Shown: one piece after another, positions 54,373-62,328 of the stretch | Numbering within the stretch: position 1 is the stretch's first letter | Layout: each line of letters starts with the position of its first letter | Assembly: GCF_000513475.1 (NCBI RefSeq) | Contig: NC_023003.1 | Location: forward strand, 310,001-374,000 | DNA: 64,000 nucleotides | Origin: Candidatus Babela massiliensis | Lineage (GTDB): Bacteria; Babelota; Babeliae; Babelales; Babelaceae | Reading direction: 5' to 3' | The notes under the pieces: model-generated | Told to the model about the DNA's origin: nothing | Databases searched by the model: none | What the model saw: the letters and a program-made list of their open reading frames with translations, nothing else | Translations under genes and position numbers: made by a program

Positions 54373-56463
54373 ATGAAACAATTTTTAAAATCGGTTTTTT
54401 GTATAAGTCTACTATTAAGTAGCCCAGGAATTATAAGTAGTACTGATTGCGATAGCTGCTATAGTAGTAGGTCAAGTTGCGAAGATTATTCGTGCGATGA
54501 TAACTTCGGTTGTAATACCGGATGTAACACTTATCAACCTGGATGTGGCTATAATCAAGACTGCGATAACTCTTGCGACAATTGCAGCCTTTCGTGTGAT
54601 AATAGCTGCTCAGAGGATGATTGCTTTAGTTGTGATAATGCACCGGTAAGAACTTATTTACATATAAGATCTCAAGGTGCTAATACAGCACGTGAACTTG
54701 TAGGCTGGCAATGGGATATAAATTTACCATTTATGTGTAACAACTATGGAGTTGCTTACTTAGCTTATGAATATCAAAGATCATTTAACTCATGCAGAAT
54801 AGCTAATTCACTTTTTGGCGGTCGTACATTAAGATTCTCCGGAAGTTTAGTACCAGGAAGAGATTCAAGAAACGAACTTCTTGCTGATAACTTTGGTTTA
54901 TCACGTACTTTCCAAGGAAGCTTAACTTTCTCCCCAAGAATACAAAACCATATTATAGATCTTGGTTACTTTATGGGACTTGATTGTTGGCTACAGGGCT
55001 CTTACATTAGATTCCATGCGCCAATAACTTATAGTCATTGGTCTTTACAAGCACGTGAATGTGTAACATGCCCAGGAAGCTGTACTGAAAGTGCTTGCTA
55101 CTATGGAAGTGATGATGTAGCATCTTCAACAACTCCTGTATATGAACCAAGCGTACCTGTAACTACGGTAGCAACTTCTTTACGTCAAGCATTAGGTGGT
55201 AATTACTTATTTGGTGATATGCAAACTCCATGGTGTGCTGGTAGATTTGATTTCTGCGGCCGCGGCAAATGGGGTCTTGCAGATATAGACGTTATTTTAG
55301 GTTATAACTTCCTCAATAATGATTGCTATCATTTTGGCGCATATCTACAAATGGTATTAAATACAGGACCAAAACCAAAGGATTTCTATGTATTTAGCCC
55401 TGTTGTAGGTAATGGTGGTCACTTTGAACTTGGGGCTGGTATTTCTGCACACTGGTCATTCTGGTCAAATGAAACTCAAAACTTAGCATTATTCTTAGAA
55501 GGTAACATTACTCATATGTTCCAAAATGAACAATGTCGTTTATTCGATCTTTGTAATGGTGGAGCGTTCAGCAGATATATGTTACTTAAAGAATATGATA
55601 CTAATGGTTTGACAAACACTTATAATGGCAACTTAGTAAGCGCAACTTGTTTCACCAATAGACGTGTTGATGTAAAAGTTGACATTAAAGGTGATCTTGC
55701 TATAAAACTTGCTTATCGCTGGTGCGGTTGGGGTATTGACGTAGGTTATAATATTTACGGACATAGCCATGAAACAATCAGATTTAAATGTGATGAAAGC
55801 AATGATTGCGCTCCTCAAAGAATTCTTAGCCCTAAAGGTACTGAAGGCGTATGTTGCTTCAATTATCCTGTAGTTTGTGTTCCAACAACAGCTGGAACTT
55901 ATAATTCAACTATATTCCCTGATAATGCTACACTACCTGCAGGCACCGCAGTATGTGATGTAACCACAGGATCTTGTCCAACTTCTTCTGCTGATGCAAC
56001 TCCGTTTACAGGATCTTACAGAGTTACAGCGGTGAATAATAATGGCAGTCAACCTAATGCAACAGCATATAACGGTTATCCTGTAACAAATCCTAACCCA
56101 ACCACAGGAACAAGTACTGCTTGTGCAGTAGCTTTATCTGCAAATAACACAACAGTCGTTCCATCAACAGGTGCTTTAGTTTCTGCTCTAGTAAGTGATG
56201 GTTATGTTTTATGTAACAATTTTGCTCCAGTGGCTCCTTTAACAAAAGCAGATCTTAATAGAAGATCAGCAGAATCCGTATCACAGTTAACCAACAAAAT
56301 ATTTGGCCATATTAACTATACTTGGTATGACAAATGCGGTTGGAATCCACAACTTGGTGTAGGTGCTGAAGCTGAATTTAGTAACAGACGTAATTCAGAA
56401 ATTTGCAGAAAAGCAGATTTAGAACAATGGGGTGTTTGGTTTAAAGGCGCTATTACCTTCTAA
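54373..56463 (+). CDS. Cys-rich outer-membrane beta-barrel-like surface protein 2
   Basis: A 696-residue exported protein with a signal peptide (about 1-22), a very Cys/Ser/Asn-rich head (about 24-92, more than 15 Cys in repeated CD-N-SC patterns), the motif RSQGANTARELVGWQ (about 99-113), a long beta-type domain with the family patterns LLADNFGLS, LFGDMQTPWCAG, DIDVILGYNF and RWCGWGIDVGYN, a Thr/Asn-rich variable stretch (about 490-620), and a C-terminal WGVWFKGAITF. It is a probable major surface barrel. The Cys-rich head recalls disulfide-linked envelopes of chlamydiae; this is an analogy, not homology. Confidence 0.8.
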   Translation: MKQFLKSVFCISLLLSSPGIISSTDCDSCYSSRSSCEDYSCDDNFGCNTGCNTYQPGCGYNQDCDNSCDNCSLSCDNSCSEDDCFSCDNAPVRTYLHIRSQGANTARELVGWQWDINLPFMCNNYGVAYLAYEYQRSFNSCRIANSLFGGRTLRFSGSLVPGRDSRNELLADNFGLSRTFQGSLTFSPRIQNHIIDLGYFMGLDCWLQGSYIRFHAPITYSHWSLQARECVTCPGSCTESACYYGSDDVASSTTPVYEPSVPVTTVATSLRQALGGNYLFGDMQTPWCAGRFDFCGRGKWGLADIDVILGYNFLNNDCYHFGAYLQMVLNTGPKPKDFYVFSPVVGNGGHFELGAGISAHWSFWSNETQNLALFLEGNITHMFQNEQCRLFDLCNGGAFSRYMLLKEYDTNGLTNTYNGNLVSATCFTNRRVDVKVDIKGDLAIKLAYRWCGWGIDVGYNIYGHSHETIRFKCDESNDCAPQRILSPKGTEGVCCFNYPVVCVPTTAGTYNSTIFPDNATLPAGTAVCDVTTGSCPTSSADATPFTGSYRVTAVNNNGSQPNATAYNGYPVTNPNPTTGTSTACAVALSANNTTVVPSTGALVSALVSDGYVLCNNFAPVAPLTKADLNRRSAESVSQLTNKIFGHINYTWYDKCGWNPQLGVGAEAEFSNRRNSEICRKADLEQWGVWFKGAITF

Positions 56464-56792: not shown

Positions 56793-58865
56793 ATGAAAAA
56801 ATTTATAACAACAGCATTTTGTGTAACATTACTTTTAAGCAGTTTTGAAAAAATATACGCAAAAAACTATGATTCCTCATCTAATTCTGTAGATAATTTT
56901 TCAGATAAGAGAGATTATAAATCTTGTAATTCATGCTCAAATGACTGCGATTTAGCCGTATGCGAAAGCAGCTCATCGTGTGAATCTTATAGCTCTTGCG
57001 ATAATTTGACCAATAATTATGATTGCACTAATTATTGTCAATATACATGTAACAATAATTGTGATAATAGCTGCGATAGTTGCGATGAGGGATGTAATGG
57101 CGGAAATTGCTCATTATGTTGTGCAACTCCAGTAAGAACAGCTATGCATTTTAGATCTCAAGGGGCAAATACTGCAAGAGAGCTTGTAGGTTGGCAATGG
57201 GAAATCAATTTACCGTTTATGTGTAATAACTACGGTGCTGCTTACTTTGCTTATGAATATCAAAGATCTTTTAATGATAAAATCATCGCAAATGCACTTT
57301 TTGGAAATTGCAGATTAAACTTTTCAGGTAGCGCAGTAGCAAATAGATCAAGCAATGATCTTTTAGCAGATAACTTCGGCCTTTCAAGCAATTTCCAAGG
57401 AAGCATACGGTTTAACCCAAGAATTCAAAATCATATATTCGATTTTGGTTACTACCAAGGGCTTGATTGTTGGATTCAAGGCTCTTACTTAAGATTACAT
57501 GCACCTGTAGTATTAACCTATTGGGAATTAAGACCTTGTGAAACTTCTTGCAATACAACAACAACCGATTTTGATACCTGCTATGTAGATAGCACTTCAA
57601 ATCAACCAACAGCTCCTGCTCAAAGTATCTTACAAGCATTAACCGGAAACTTCTTATTTGGTGATATGCAAACACCTTGGTGCGCTGGAAAATTTGACCC
57701 TTGTTCAAGAAAAAGAGTAGGACTTGCTGATATAGACGTTATTTTAGGATATAATTTCTTAAATACTGATTGCTATCATTTAGGGCTTTATGCACAATTA
57801 GTTATGCCTACAGGAAAAAAATATAAAGATAGATTTATCTTTGATCCAGTAGTTGGAAACTATGGTCATTTTGAAGTAGGTGGCGGTGTTTCTGCTCATG
57901 CAGTTTTATGGTCAAGTAATGATCATAATTTAGCTGCATTTTTAGAAGGTAACTTAACTCATATGTGCAAGACACATCAATGCAGGTTATTTGATTTCCA
58001 AAATGCTGGTGCATTTAGCAGATACTTATTACTTAAAGAATATGATGCATCTGGAGTTTATACTGGACGCTTAATTAATGCTACTTGTTTTAATAATAGA
58101 CGCGTAGATGTAAGAGTAAATATCAAAGGTGATGCTTCTGTTAAACTTGCCTATCGTTGGTGTGGTTGGGGCGCAGATCTTGGTTATAATATTTACGGAC
58201 ATAGCAGTGAAAGCGTTAAATTCAGAGATGATTCTTGTGTAAATCCTGCATGGCAATATGCAATCAAAGGAAGTGCTCCTGTATGCTGCTCAAGCTATCC
58301 TGTTGCTTGTGTTCCATCAGGTGATACTTATACTCAAATGATATTTCCAGATGGAGCAACTTTACCGACAGGTACATTAGCATGTTCAGTAAATACACAA
58401 GACGGTAGTGCAACTTGTGAAGCTACTAATCCAGCTCTTTCCTCTTATACTGTAAATACAACACTCAATAATGGAGCACAACCTAGTGCAACTGCTTTTG
58501 CAGCCAGCCCAATTACAATAAGCTCTCCTGAAGGTTGCAGCGTTTGCTTAAATCAAACAGTAACCGCTCCTATTAATATTTCTCAATTAACAACTGAAGG
58601 ATTTGTGCTTGTTGATAATAATTCACCAACAAGATTTGTAACTCCAGGAGATTTTAATATTAGATCTGCTGAATCCATTGGAGTATTAACTCATAAGATA
58701 TTTGCTCATTTAAACTACGTTTGGTACGATAGATGTGGTTATAATCCACAGCTTGGTATAGGTGGCGAAGCAGAATTCAATGATAATCATATCAATGACT
58801 TAAATTGCAAAAATGCCGGTTTAAGTCAATGGGGTGTATGGTTAAAAGGTAATATATCATTCTAA
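56793..58865 (+). CDS. Cys-rich outer-membrane beta-barrel-like surface protein 3
   Basis: A 690-residue paralogue of the preceding gene with a signal peptide (about 1-23), a Cys/Ser/Asn-rich head (about 45-112), RSQGANTARELVGWQ (about 120-134), the same core patterns (LLADNFGLS, LFGDMQTPWCAG, DIDVILGYNF, RWCGWGADLGYN), a Thr/Ser-rich variable stretch, and a C-terminal WGVWLKGNISF. Head and variable stretch diverge most from protein 2, as expected for exposed parts. It shares a bidirectional terminator with acpP. Confidence 0.8.
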   Translation: MKKFITTAFCVTLLLSSFEKIYAKNYDSSSNSVDNFSDKRDYKSCNSCSNDCDLAVCESSSSCESYSSCDNLTNNYDCTNYCQYTCNNNCDNSCDSCDEGCNGGNCSLCCATPVRTAMHFRSQGANTARELVGWQWEINLPFMCNNYGAAYFAYEYQRSFNDKIIANALFGNCRLNFSGSAVANRSSNDLLADNFGLSSNFQGSIRFNPRIQNHIFDFGYYQGLDCWIQGSYLRLHAPVVLTYWELRPCETSCNTTTTDFDTCYVDSTSNQPTAPAQSILQALTGNFLFGDMQTPWCAGKFDPCSRKRVGLADIDVILGYNFLNTDCYHLGLYAQLVMPTGKKYKDRFIFDPVVGNYGHFEVGGGVSAHAVLWSSNDHNLAAFLEGNLTHMCKTHQCRLFDFQNAGAFSRYLLLKEYDASGVYTGRLINATCFNNRRVDVRVNIKGDASVKLAYRWCGWGADLGYNIYGHSSESVKFRDDSCVNPAWQYAIKGSAPVCCSSYPVACVPSGDTYTQMIFPDGATLPTGTLACSVNTQDGSATCEATNPALSSYTVNTTLNNGAQPSATAFAASPITISSPEGCSVCLNQTVTAPINISQLTTEGFVLVDNNSPTRFVTPGDFNIRSAESIGVLTHKIFAHLNYVWYDRCGYNPQLGIGGEAEFNDNHINDLNCKNAGLSQWGVWLKGNISF

Positions 58866-58918: not shown

Positions 58919-59182
58919 TTAACTTGATTTGTGTTTTAAATTATAAATATAATTCACCGCATCATCTATAGTATTTAATTTCTCAGCATCTTCGTCATTG
59001 ATTTCTAGCTTAAACTCTTCCTCAAGTCGCATCACAATTTCAACTCTATCAAGAGAATCAGCTCCTAAACTATCAATAGTAGCATCAGCAGTTATAGAAC
59101 TTTCAGGGACATTTAGCTGTTTAGAAACAAGAGATACTATTTTATTACGTATTTCATTTTTTTCATTTTGATCTACTGACAT
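58919..59182 (-). CDS. acpP: Acyl carrier protein
   Basis: An 87-residue acidic helical carrier protein. The phosphopantetheine attachment Ser43 lies in the standard GADSLDRVE motif, followed by the [21 protein letters not shown] pattern of helices II-III. It is last in a minus-strand run after fabD, 25 bp downstream of it. Fatty-acid or phospholipid synthesis is its usual role; the neighbouring FabD looks inactive, so acyl chains may come from other enzymes. Confidence 0.95.
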
Positions 59183-59207: not shown

Positions 59208-60218
59208 CTATATATTATTAATTCCTAATAAATTATTTATTATACTATCATTATCATTATTAATATCATTAATATCAATATTTATAGTTTCTTCTAATAT
59301 TGCCTTTAAATTATCAATATCTAATAAACTTTCTATACCTATAATTGCCTTATTGGGATAAAAATTTCTTATTTCTGAAACAAAATTTTTTGAAGGTGAA
59401 GGTATAATAATTATGTCCATATCACTAAACTGTTTTAAGACATTATTCCAGCAAATTGGCTTAATTATTAAATCCATTATAAGATTTTGTGCTGATTGAG
59501 CAGAAATCACTTCTTTACCATTTATACATGAAATCATCGGTATCAAAAGATCTTTAAAATCAACCTTGGTTAAATATAACTTAAGCTGATCAAAAATTTC
59601 TCTCAAAAGAGGATTATGTAAAGCCTCTTCCAAATTAAATTTAGTAACTTTATCAGCACCCTTGGAAGAAGCAGATTTTGCTACAGCCTCTACTGCACTA
59701 GTATTGCCTGTTACCATATGCTCGCTATCCTTTGAATAGACTGAAATTTGAGCAGAATTATCTTGAGAGCTATTTTCTTTACAGATCTTTTTTACATCGC
59801 GAGAAGATAAACCATCTATTACTACAGTTTTAACATCTATCTGCTGCTTAATTTTTGTATAAAAGTCAGAAAGCTTTTTCAAAAGATAAAGACCATCAGG
59901 AAAGCTTATTCCTCCTGAAAAACATAGCGCACTATATTCCCCCAATCCATGACCTGCTACCTTATCAACTTTTATACCAAAGTGATCTTTGAGCATAATA
60001 GCAATAGAAGTACTTAAAAGAAATATAGAAGGATAAGCATTTGAAATCTTACCTAATTCTATATCTGATGAGGCATAGCAAAGTTTTACAAAATTACTAT
60101 CTAAACAATGTGAAGCTTCTTCAAAATACTCCTGCATTATTCGAAAATTATCATATAATTCTTTTGCCATACCTACAAATTGATTCCCATAACCAGGAAA
60201 AAGCATTCCTACTTTCAT
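59208..60218 (-). CDS. fabD: FabD-like malonyl-CoA:ACP transacylase homologue lacking the nucleophile
   Basis: A 336-residue FabD-fold protein, similar along its length to malonyl-CoA:ACP transacylase. Four key sites differ: GHSLGE is GHGLGE (Gly91 instead of the catalytic Ser), the GQGSQ oxyanion loop is GYGNQ, the Arg that binds the malonyl carboxylate is missing around residue 117, and GPGxxL near the end is SPSKNF. His201 is kept. The reading frame is long and intact next to acpP, so it is probably maintained as a non-catalytic ACP- or acyl-binding protein rather than decaying, though recent loss of function cannot be excluded. An Asn/Asp/Ile-rich tail (about 305-336) is unusual. Confidence 0.85.
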   Translation of the reverse strand: MKVGMLFPGYGNQFVGMAKELYDNFRIMQEYFEEASHCLDSNFVKLCYASSDIELGKISNAYPSIFLLSTSIAIMLKDHFGIKVDKVAGHGLGEYSALCFSGGISFPDGLYLLKKLSDFYTKIKQQIDVKTVVIDGLSSRDVKKICKENSSQDNSAQISVYSKDSEHMVTGNTSAVEAVAKSASSKGADKVTKFNLEEALHNPLLREIFDQLKLYLTKVDFKDLLIPMISCINGKEVISAQSAQNLIMDLIIKPICWNNVLKQFSDMDIIIIPSPSKNFVSEIRNFYPNKAIIGIESLLDIDNLKAILEETINIDINDINNDNDSIINNLLGINNI

Positions 60219-60247
60219 AGTTAACCTCCAAAAAACTAATTAAGTGT

Positions 60248-61666
60248 TTAATGCTTCCTTACTACATTAGATAAAAATTCAACAAAAACTTTTATCCTCT
60301 GTATACTCTCTTTTTTTCCAAGCAAAATAATAATATCAAAAATGCCTGGGCTTGAAACTTTTCCTGTTAATGCTAACCTAATCGGTTGAGCTATTTCAGG
60401 TAACTTTATACCAAATTCTTTACATAATATTTTAATATCTAAAGAAATATTTTCATGAGAAAAATTTTCTTGCATATCAAGACTCGATATTAATTTCTTT
60501 AATATCGATATACTATTTTCATTAGCCCATTGATCTAAATTATGTAATTCCAAATTATGAGGCTCATTATATAATTCTACAATAAACAGTAGTAACTCTT
60601 TAAGAGTTCTTACTCTATCTTTATATAAATCTATTGATTTTAATATCTTATCTTGACTCCAATGATTTAAATTTTTAAATACATCAGCGTCTATATTTTC
60701 TGTTATATAATCAAATAAGTATTGAGATGAAGAATTACGAATATAAACACCATTGACCCACTCAAGTTTCTTAATATCAAAAATTGCTCCATGTTTTGAT
60801 ACATTTTCTAGAGTGAAATATTTAATCATTTCTTCTTTTGAAAAGATTTCTTGATCTCCATGAGCCCAGCCTAATCTTACTAGATAATTACATAAAGCGT
60901 CTGGTAAAAATCCCTCTTTTTGATAAAAATCTACTGAAGTTGCTGCATGTCTTTTACTCAATTTTCCACCATCAGGACTCAAAATCAAGGGTAAGTGTCC
61001 AAATAATGGTACTCTAAAACCACATGCTTGATATAGTAAAATTTGTTTAGGCGTATTGGATATATGCTCTTCGCCTCTTAAGATATGAGTAATATTCATA
61101 CTATTATCATCAACCACAACTGCAAAATTATAAGTAGGCATCCCATCAGATCTGAATATAACAAAATCATCAAATTGATCTATATCAAAGGTTATATCAC
61201 CTCTAATTAAATCGTTAAATTCAATCTTATCAATATTTTCAGGTAGCTTAAATCTTATAACATGAGGACTTTGAAGATCTATTTGATTAATCAAACGATT
61301 TCTACAGGTACCTTCATACTTTTTATATTCTACATTTTGATTTGATTCTTTTTCAGAACAAAAACAACGATATGCCAAATTTTTTTCAAGCATATAATTA
61401 AGTACTTTATTATATAACTCAAGACGTTGTGATTGAAAGGTTATTGGTTCATCTGATTCTATACCAACCCACTTTAATGGAATTAAAATCGAATCAACAT
61501 ATTTAGATTCTGAACGATTTAAATCAGTATCCTCAATTCTAATTATAAATTGACCTTTGTTGTGACGTGCATATAGCCAATTAAACAACGCTACTCTTAA
61601 TGAACCTAAATGCAAATAGCCCGTAGGCGATGGCGCAAATCTTACACGAATCAAATTATCTGTCAT
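60248..61666 (-). CDS. gltX: Glutamate--tRNA ligase
   Basis: A 472-residue class I synthetase with APSPTGYLHLGSLRVALFNW (HIGH type), RIEDTD, the cofactor-region NFAVVVDD, and KLSKRHA (KMSKS type), with a complete C-terminal anticodon domain. In organisms with GatCAB it often also charges tRNA-Gln, which agrees with gatCA in this window. It lies 14 bp after the upstream YfgM-like gene and 29 bp before fabD. Confidence 0.95.
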   Translation of the reverse strand: MTDNLIRVRFAPSPTGYLHLGSLRVALFNWLYARHNKGQFIIRIEDTDLNRSESKYVDSILIPLKWVGIESDEPITFQSQRLELYNKVLNYMLEKNLAYRCFCSEKESNQNVEYKKYEGTCRNRLINQIDLQSPHVIRFKLPENIDKIEFNDLIRGDITFDIDQFDDFVIFRSDGMPTYNFAVVVDDNSMNITHILRGEEHISNTPKQILLYQACGFRVPLFGHLPLILSPDGGKLSKRHAATSVDFYQKEGFLPDALCNYLVRLGWAHGDQEIFSKEEMIKYFTLENVSKHGAIFDIKKLEWVNGVYIRNSSSQYLFDYITENIDADVFKNLNHWSQDKILKSIDLYKDRVRTLKELLLFIVELYNEPHNLELHNLDQWANENSISILKKLISSLDMQENFSHENISLDIKILCKEFGIKLPEIAQPIRLALTGKVSSPGIFDIIILLGKKESIQRIKVFVEFLSNVVRKH

Positions 61667-61680
61667 AATATTTCTTAAGT

Positions 61681-62328
61681 TTATAAGGATTCTAATCTAG
61701 ATTTAGCTAAATTATACCAACTTGAATCTTGTTTATCTTTGTTAATAATTGTTTGCCAAAGTTCTTTAGCTTTATCTTTATTAGATTTAAAGAACTCATT
61801 AAGACCTAAATTATATATAGCCATATCCTGAAGAGGATTATTTACATTATTTGCAAGACCTTTAAGCTCATCATAACCTTGAGATTCTAACTGTGTATCT
61901 TTAGAGTCTAACTTTAATAATGCTCTTTTTATAGAATAAGCATAATATAATGGATCATTTTGCTTAACAGAATTAACAATTGTATCAAATATTTCAGCCG
62001 CTTCTTTATACTTATTTTGTTTTAAAAGCGTCTCTGCTTGATAGCTTAAAAATAAAGGATATAATTTAGAATTTTTATGTTTTTGAGCTGCTGCTTTCAA
62101 TATATGCTCAATATCATTTAAATCATCTTTATTATTTAAATGTATCTTTTTGCTATATTCTTGAGCAATTTTTGCAAATTCTTGACTAGCTGCTTGCTCA
62201 CTCTTATTTTTATAATAAGAATAACCAAACCACGATAAACCTAATAAAGAAGTTAATACAAATGCCATTACTAATAATACTATATAATTTCTATATTTAG
62301 AATTTCCAACAAGATTAGAGTAAACCAT
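61681..62328 (-). CDS. YfgM-like membrane-anchored TPR protein
   Basis: 215 residues: a short cytoplasmic N-terminus, one membrane segment (about 15-38), then a periplasmic helical domain with TPR-like units (for example YPLFLSYQAETLLKQNKYKEA and YNLGLNEFFKSNKDKAKELW). Size and plan match YfgM/tetratricopeptide-like proteins that assist translocon-associated periplasmic chaperones. It is immediately upstream of gltX. Confidence 0.75.
   Translation of the reverse strand: MVYSNLVGNSKYRNYIVLLVMAFVLTSLLGLSWFGYSYYKNKSEQAASQEFAKIAQEYSKKIHLNNKDDLNDIEHILKAAAQKHKNSKLYPLFLSYQAETLLKQNKYKEAAEIFDTIVNSVKQNDPLYYAYSIKRALLKLDSKDTQLESQGYDELKGLANNVNNPLQDMAIYNLGLNEFFKSNKDKAKELWQTIINKDKQDSSWYNLAKSRLESL

Follow-up and report, generated by a model that had tools for sequence, protein, structure and literature searches.

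The amoeba parasite Babela massiliensis, a member of the phylum Dependentiae, codes for a homolog of the malonyl-CoA:ACP transacylase FabD that is very probably not an enzyme. Comparison with its relatives indicates that it is a pseudoenzyme, lacking the essential catalytic residues and maintained by purifying selection. We consider it probable, if some way from assured, that this dead FabD, with its complete fold, has been kept as a noncatalytic scaffold or chaperone with a partner site on its N-terminal segment. The gene lies in the window, i.e., the whole stretch of 64,000 nucleotides analyzed here, which corresponds to positions 310001 to 374000 of the single contig. Residues are numbered as in E. 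coli FabD, unless they are given for the B. massiliensis protein, in which case the E. coli equivalent follows in parentheses.

Gene neighborhood and predicted fold

The fabD-like open reading frame has an ATG start with GGAGG just upstream and codes for 336 aa without an internal stop, in agreement with the full-length frame reported in the first-pass annotation. It belongs to a minus-strand row with the order dprA-rpmF-TPR protein-gltX-fabD-like-acpP, in which dprA was recognized by eye (Table 1). Its product is the sole Acyl_transf_1 domain in the B. massiliensis genome, matches PF00698 with 55.4 bits, and has C. perfringens FabD as its closest PDB match by sequence. The match to TIGR00128 (155.2 bits) does not reach the curated cutoff of 260.9; this cutoff is exceeded in just 9 of 101 Dependentiae genomes, so that it cannot by itself separate the two clades described below. 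An AlphaFold model built with 53 orthologs in the alignment (pLDDT, 94.3; pTM, 0.89) superimposes on E. coli FabD 1mla with TM scores of 0.83/0.91 and on other solved FabDs with scores up to 0.93. The model thus predicts with high confidence a complete FabD fold, as the first-pass annotation had supposed. The plus strand of the window encodes, in tandem, two Cys-rich proteins that look secreted and measure about 690 aa each; they are 53% identical to each other, have no Pfam match, and are probably a duplicated surface protein.

Table 1. Features of the fabD-like locus and other features of the window
Feature	Position in window	Strand	Basis or remark
Predicted noncatalytic FabD-fold protein (pseudo-acyltransferase), 336 aa	59208..60218	-	TIGR00128, PF00698, AlphaFold model
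Shine-Dalgarno GGAGG of fabD-like gene	60225..60229	-	Sequence
Codons 18-54 (E. coli 19-55), N-terminal helices	60057..60167	-	Most conserved segment; proposed second-site interface
Tyr10 codon (Gln11 in catalytic FabDs)	60189..60191	-	Tyr in 55/60 of clade
Tyr62 codon (Gln63 in all catalytic FabDs sampled)	60033..60035	-	
Former nucleophile elbow, His90-Gly91-Leu92-Gly93-Glu94	59937..59951	-	
Gly91 codon GGA, replacing Ser92	59946-59948	-	
Leu116 codon (Arg117 in catalytic FabDs)	59871..59873	-	Mostly Tyr/Phe in clade
Tyr120 codon (Met121)	59859..59861	-	
His201 codon	59616..59618	-	Kept (52/60 in clade)
acpP, acyl carrier protein	58919..59182	-	25 bp downstream of fabD-like gene; TIGR00517, PF00550
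Intact phosphopantetheine Ser43 of acpP product	59054-59056	-	
gltX, glutamate-tRNA ligase	60248..61666	-	Directly upstream of fabD-like gene; TIGR00464, 524.7 bits
TPR-like protein, same gene row	61681..62328	-	Weak TPR matches; same position in relatives
rpmF, ribosomal protein L32	62436..62711	-	PF01783; listed ORF start 62723, MPVPKR start 62711
First Cys-rich protein of tandem pair	54373..56463	+	
Second Cys-rich protein of tandem pair	56793..58865	+	

Loss of the catalytic residues

Judged by these features, the protein resembles E. coli FabD (1mla, 6u0j) in its whole fold, its length, its acpP neighborhood, and the retention of His201, Q14, and G94; unlike it, the protein lacks Ser92, Gln11, Gln63, Arg117, and Met121. 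The first-pass annotation had described the loss of the catalytic Ser, a GQGSQ motif altered to GYGNQ, and the loss of the substrate-binding Arg next to a retained His201, and the alignment bears out each of these: the B. massiliensis protein has Y10 (Q11) and N12 (S13), H90 (H91) and G91 (S92), L116 (R117), and H201 (H201). To these it adds L250 (Q250), Y62 (Q63), and Y120 (M121), of which Q63Y and M121Y are clade-wide and had been missing from the earlier list. With the nucleophile, the oxyanion-side Gln, and the substrate Arg all gone, acyl transfer should be impossible. The reported change in the GPGxxL motif is likewise real, the motif reading PSPSKNF, but it is weak evidence and was rejected as a mark of lost catalysis, since catalytic relatives vary there too: the third Gly is also replaced in most catalytic Dependentiae FabDs. 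In the alignment, the noncatalytic clade keeps G276 in 51 of 60 members and P277 in 53 of 60.

The Gly91 codon, GGA, is two substitutions away from any Ser codon, and a single base error therefore cannot explain it. The loss is not peculiar to this strain either, as the elbow of the nearest relatives reads AGHGIGE (G006) and AGYGIGE (G011), and orthologs across the Dependentiae share the absence of the Ser.

A single noncatalytic clade under purifying selection

A TIGR00128 profile search of 101 Dependentiae genomes, followed by retrieval of the loci and alignment of the proteins with E. coli FabD, recovered a FabD homolog in 82 of them. The 21 catalytic proteins, from families f3, f5, f12, f15, f16, and f18, carry the canonical GQGSQ, GHSxGE, R117, and H201, whereas the 61 noncatalytic ones span 11 of the 19 Dependentiae families (f1, f2, f4, f6, f7, f8, f10, f11, f13, f17, and f19). 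Sixty of the latter were long enough for alignment and tree building, and in these 11 families the motifs take the form of FPGYGSQF, AGY(G/N/D)xGE, and KYAxFY or variants thereof. When the motif columns were left out of a tree inferred by a quick method, all 60 noncatalytic proteins fell on one side of a single branch (SH-aLRT, 98), which shows that one ancestral loss of the catalytic residues gave rise to the entire clade. A separate, second S92G replacement is seen within the catalytic clade in genome G062, which retains Q11, R117, and H201 and has what is left of a decayed fabG downstream (25% identity over 68 aa; E, 5e-4). Outside the phylum, where FabDs were fetched with the noncatalytic profile itself (the best 78 of 546 relatives, which do not amount to a census), Q11, Q63, S92, R117, M121, and H201 are kept in 78 of 78.

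The gene is located directly downstream of gltX in 53 of the 61 noncatalytic and 15 of the 21 catalytic loci. In G097 (L058/L099; accession no. AP025250.1), the FabD-like gene has been kept about 72 kb away from gltX-acpP, and its product has an Asn instead of the His at position 201. No FabD match was obtained in 19 of the 101 genomes, several of which have a clean gltX-acpP junction; the gene is dispensable and its function replaceable, a point that counts against the reading as a retained function.

Nei-Gojobori (NG86) dN/dS ratios nevertheless point to strong purifying selection, in support of the retained pseudoenzyme proposed in the first-pass annotation. They are 0.09 (G044/G047), 0.14 (G038/G039), 0.15 (G098/G099), and 0.17 (G092/G093) for close noncatalytic pairs and 0.15 to 0.30 within f4, so that the noncatalytic values (0.09 to 0.30) occupy the same range as the catalytic ones (0.10 to 0.31); several dS values are near saturation, and most weight falls on the closest pairs. 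The loss of catalytic motifs in an AT-rich, reduced genome might in principle denote a decaying relic or a sequencing artifact. We find this barely credible and rejected it, given that the frame is complete in about 60 genomes, that the replacements are conserved, that dN/dS is 0.09 to 0.3, and that the Gly codon is two changes removed from Ser.

The surrounding fatty acid pathway

Profile searches of the B. massiliensis genome returned no match for FabF, FabH, FabZ, or the carboxylase, and the search for a further fabD, fabH, or fabF proposed earlier likewise yielded none. Matches to PF08541 and weak ones to PF00109 were not taken as FabH or FabF; judged by length and partial match only, they are probably different members of the thiolase fold, HMG-CoA synthase for instance. 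Across the survey, a full-length FabF-type match (PF00109) is found in 12 of 21 genomes with a catalytic FabD and 0 of 61 with a noncatalytic one (Fisher, 4e-9), and an acetyl-CoA carboxylase match (PF03255) is found in 14 of 21 and 0 of 61 (Fisher, 5e-11), although as gene-content correlations these values reflect in essence one evolutionary event plus G062. The dead protein thus differs from classical FabD also in the company that it keeps, and the FabD of B. massiliensis appears not to be part of a working type II fatty acid synthase. The 2015 genome paper placed it among enzymes of unclear function with the pathway missing (PMC4378268), and the Chromulinavorax paper reported no evidence of lipid biosynthesis. 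In f3 and f5 (five genomes), the catalytic FabD is intact despite the absence of FabF and the carboxylase, implying that FabD can outlive its pathway before the active site is lost; together with G062, these families represent intermediate states.

The pathway content also bears on whether the protein is still a malonyl- or acyltransferase with another nucleophile. H201 is kept in 52 of 60 members, and Asp or Cys occupies position 92 in some lineages. However, no common nucleophile is found across the clade, R117, which all of the best 78 of 546 relatives from other phyla keep, is gone, and none of the 61 genomes yielded a carboxylase for making malonyl-CoA, which together make this possibility very remote.

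AcpS and an AMP-binding acyl-CoA/ACP synthetase are present in B. massiliensis and in most f1 and f19 genomes. These gene contents are consistent with an activation of host fatty acids and thereby fit the first-pass annotation, in which the organism was thought perhaps to obtain its fatty acids from the host. Separately, across the 101 genomes a FabF-type synthase was seen in 13 and a carboxylase match in 17. The FabA/FabZ dehydratase (PF07977) had no match in any of the 101, and the FabF-positive families must accordingly rely on a different dehydratase or have another product. We also observed a fusion of an AMP-binding synthetase, a carrier domain, and a PlsC-type acyltransferase of about 830 aa (L088:884-3418 and L089:768-3254), and open reading frames of similar length with AMP-binding and PP-binding matches in several other Dependentiae. 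This fusion might take free fatty acids to phospholipid within a single protein.

A shift of constraint to the N-terminal helices

The distribution of sequence conservation along the protein is uneven. Residues 19 to 55 show a mean pairwise identity of 0.67 in the noncatalytic clade, against 0.72 in catalytic Dependentiae FabDs and 0.44 in those of other phyla; the ratio to the catalytic relatives (0.93) is the best of any region, and when every window of 37 columns is compared, those that begin at columns 11 to 16 have both the top retention (0.95) and the top absolute conservation. The same residues have a dN/dS of 0.064 with an ordinary dS (1.02), which places the constraint on the protein rather than on the DNA. 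The small subdomain (residues 128 to 197) shows the opposite: its pairwise identity is 0.21 in the noncatalytic clade, compared with 0.50 in catalytic Dependentiae and 0.47 in other phyla (ratio, 0.42). R287, present in 95 to 100% of catalytic FabDs, drops to 13%. These comparisons show a shift of constraint to the N-terminal segment. Catalytic and noncatalytic Dependentiae FabDs further share a signature comprising R27, Q30, C39, N43, F44, A50, and S52, together with Y112, K116, Y215, K218, P290, and K292. Outside the phylum, these 13 residues range from absent to at most moderately common (K116, 42%) among the best 78 of 546 relatives.

At the C terminus, all eight f4 proteins (L059, L070, L076, L071, L069, L052, L046, and L055) have a conserved acidic tail resembling ADxxNExPxDYDIEDE, whereas inspection of f1, f2, and f8 revealed no such tail; as the f4 genomes lack ACP, it might substitute for a partner that has been lost, or else it might indicate a new interaction.

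The former active-site pocket has been refilled in a conserved manner, with Gln11, Gln63, Arg117, and Met121 mostly becoming Tyr: Y11 occurs in 55 of 60 members, Y63 in 52, an aromatic residue at 117 in 53 and at 121 in 54. Such specific replacements, unlike random decay, could denote a repurposed, Tyr-rich site (Y11, Y63, Y/F91, Y/F117, Y121, and H201) with a new ligand or reaction. We regard this as improbable. Position 92 varies among G, N, D, and C, positions 91 and 95 vary as well, the small subdomain, which in FabDs lines the opposite side of the cleft, is nearly unconstrained, and the aromatic residues may just fill a disused cavity. The refill is nonetheless more than a purely surface-based scaffold would call for, and it may represent either structural packing or a ligand site.

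Independence from acyl-ACP in at least two families

A different proposal, made in the first-pass annotation, is that the dead FabD is a partner of ACP or a sensor of acyl-ACP, i.e., that it binds, holds, protects, or reports on ACP or host-derived acyl-ACP. The start of acpP lies within 150 bp downstream in 46 of 61 noncatalytic loci, compared with 2 of 21 catalytic ones, and B. massiliensis has a Ser-bearing ACP, AcpS, and an acyl synthetase. However, catalytic genomes with a readable gap (G066, G067, G071, and G049) have a gene of the length of fabG after fabD, giving the order fabD-fabG-acpP, and the noncatalytic loci look like that order minus fabG. The adjacency looks inherited, with the close spacing stemming from the loss of fabG, and we downgraded it as evidence of partnership.

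The gene complements of individual families are more telling. An ACP able to carry an acyl group co-occurs with the protein in B. massiliensis and most genomes, but not in f2 or f4. The f2 ACPs lack the phosphopantetheine Ser (the motif reading DEL, DQF, DWL, or DEF), and none of the six f2 genomes has AcpS or the AMP-binding synthetase; the family cannot make acyl-ACP. Family f4 comprises eight genomes, including one that consists of a single contig; searches with PF00550 and with a Dependentiae ACP profile covering the Ser-less members retrieved no ACP from any of them, and AcpS and the synthetase were not detected, yet the FabD-like protein is kept. In these two families, the retained role is therefore not acyl-ACP sensing and needs no acyl-ACP. 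In f8 (G038 and G039) and f17, the free ACP likewise lacks the Ser, the carrier domain being part of the AMP-binding-PP-binding-acyltransferase fusion of about 830 aa. The Ser-less ACPs that adjoin the dead FabD in f2, f8, and f17 could be taken for a protein partner free of the prosthetic group. Yet a Ser-less ACP also survives beside gltX in G004 and G005, which have no FabD, showing that the two are not an obligate pair and weakening the idea that such ACPs are kept because of the dead FabD. Coupled with the loss of the conserved basic R287 and of the constraint on the small subdomain, these observations do not support an ACP-linked role as a general explanation, and we judge it no better than the repurposed pocket; it may still apply in B. 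massiliensis, where the Ser of the ACP is retained.

The Ser-less ACPs form an observation in their own right. They occur in about four lineages with DEL, DQF, DWL, DEF, EQL, or DDL at the motif and with the acidic helix II region kept (L078, L064, L048, L068, and L057 in f2; L053 and L047 in f8; L040 and L044 in f17; L179 and L180 in f1, i.e., G004 and G005). AcpS is gone in f2 and in G004/G005, which makes a non-carrier role for their ACP likely. A search of the open-access literature on Ser-less ACPs found no report. E. coli AcpP with MukBEF (PMC8602292) offers a precedent for ACP as a protein partner to which the Ser-less ACPs of f2, f8, f17, and G004/G005 might be likened. The partner there is a different one, and a pairing of ACP with the dead FabD would be putative.

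A possible second function of FabD in the Dependentiae

Returning to the scaffold or chaperone that we favor, its partner would be bound via residues 19 to 55 together with Y112, K116, Y215, and K218. The catalytic Dependentiae FabDs (f3, f5, f12, f15, f16, and f18) share this N-terminal signature and these four residues, as well as, mostly, the gltX-fabD order; they differ in that their catalytic residues are intact, except in G062, and in that acpP is usually not directly adjacent. Since residues 19 to 55 are conserved in these active proteins too, the second, moonlighting function probably predates the loss of catalysis and would be the reason why the gene outlived the pathway. That an old second function on the N-terminal helices, unrelated to fatty acid chemistry, preserved the protein in the Dependentiae is a tentative proposal, which we hold to be slightly more apt to fail than to stand.

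Human MCAT, the mitochondrial counterpart of FabD, retains its catalytic residues and its enzymatic role; in this it is unlike the dead Dependentiae FabD, which does not keep those residues. MCAT also takes part in assembling the mitochondrial small subunit, as a factor that sequesters h31 and hinders the docking of h42 (PMC9892005), providing an example of a FabD fold in a role outside fatty acid chemistry. By analogy, small-subunit assembly would be the most concrete candidate for the scaffold function, of which it is a special case. The folds are alike (TM, 0.79/0.81 to 8csp chain 8), and the gene sits in the translation-related row rpmF-TPR-gltX. However, E. coli too has rpmF beside fab genes, so that this context is weak, and some Dependentiae do without the gene. 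We therefore rate this specific role as unlikely, albeit a little less so than the pocket-based and ACP-based alternatives.

Implications

Searches of the open-access literature turned up no earlier account of an inactive FabD, which is weak evidence of novelty. The results provide an answer in kind to the unclear function noted for FabD in 2015, namely, that it is very probably no enzyme, and caution against reading "fabD present" in a reduced genome as a sign of fatty acid synthesis. A defined segment and several natural experiments, i.e., the losses of catalysis, of the ACP Ser, of ACP, and of AcpS, narrow the function and make the question testable. If the old second function is true, the protein was preserved past the loss of its pathway, its substrate, and, in one family, ACP. 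A FabD kept for a noncatalytic task would parallel human MCAT in mitoribosome assembly, and if the second function should be ribosome assembly, the match with MCAT would suggest an old bacterial, noncatalytic role of FabD.
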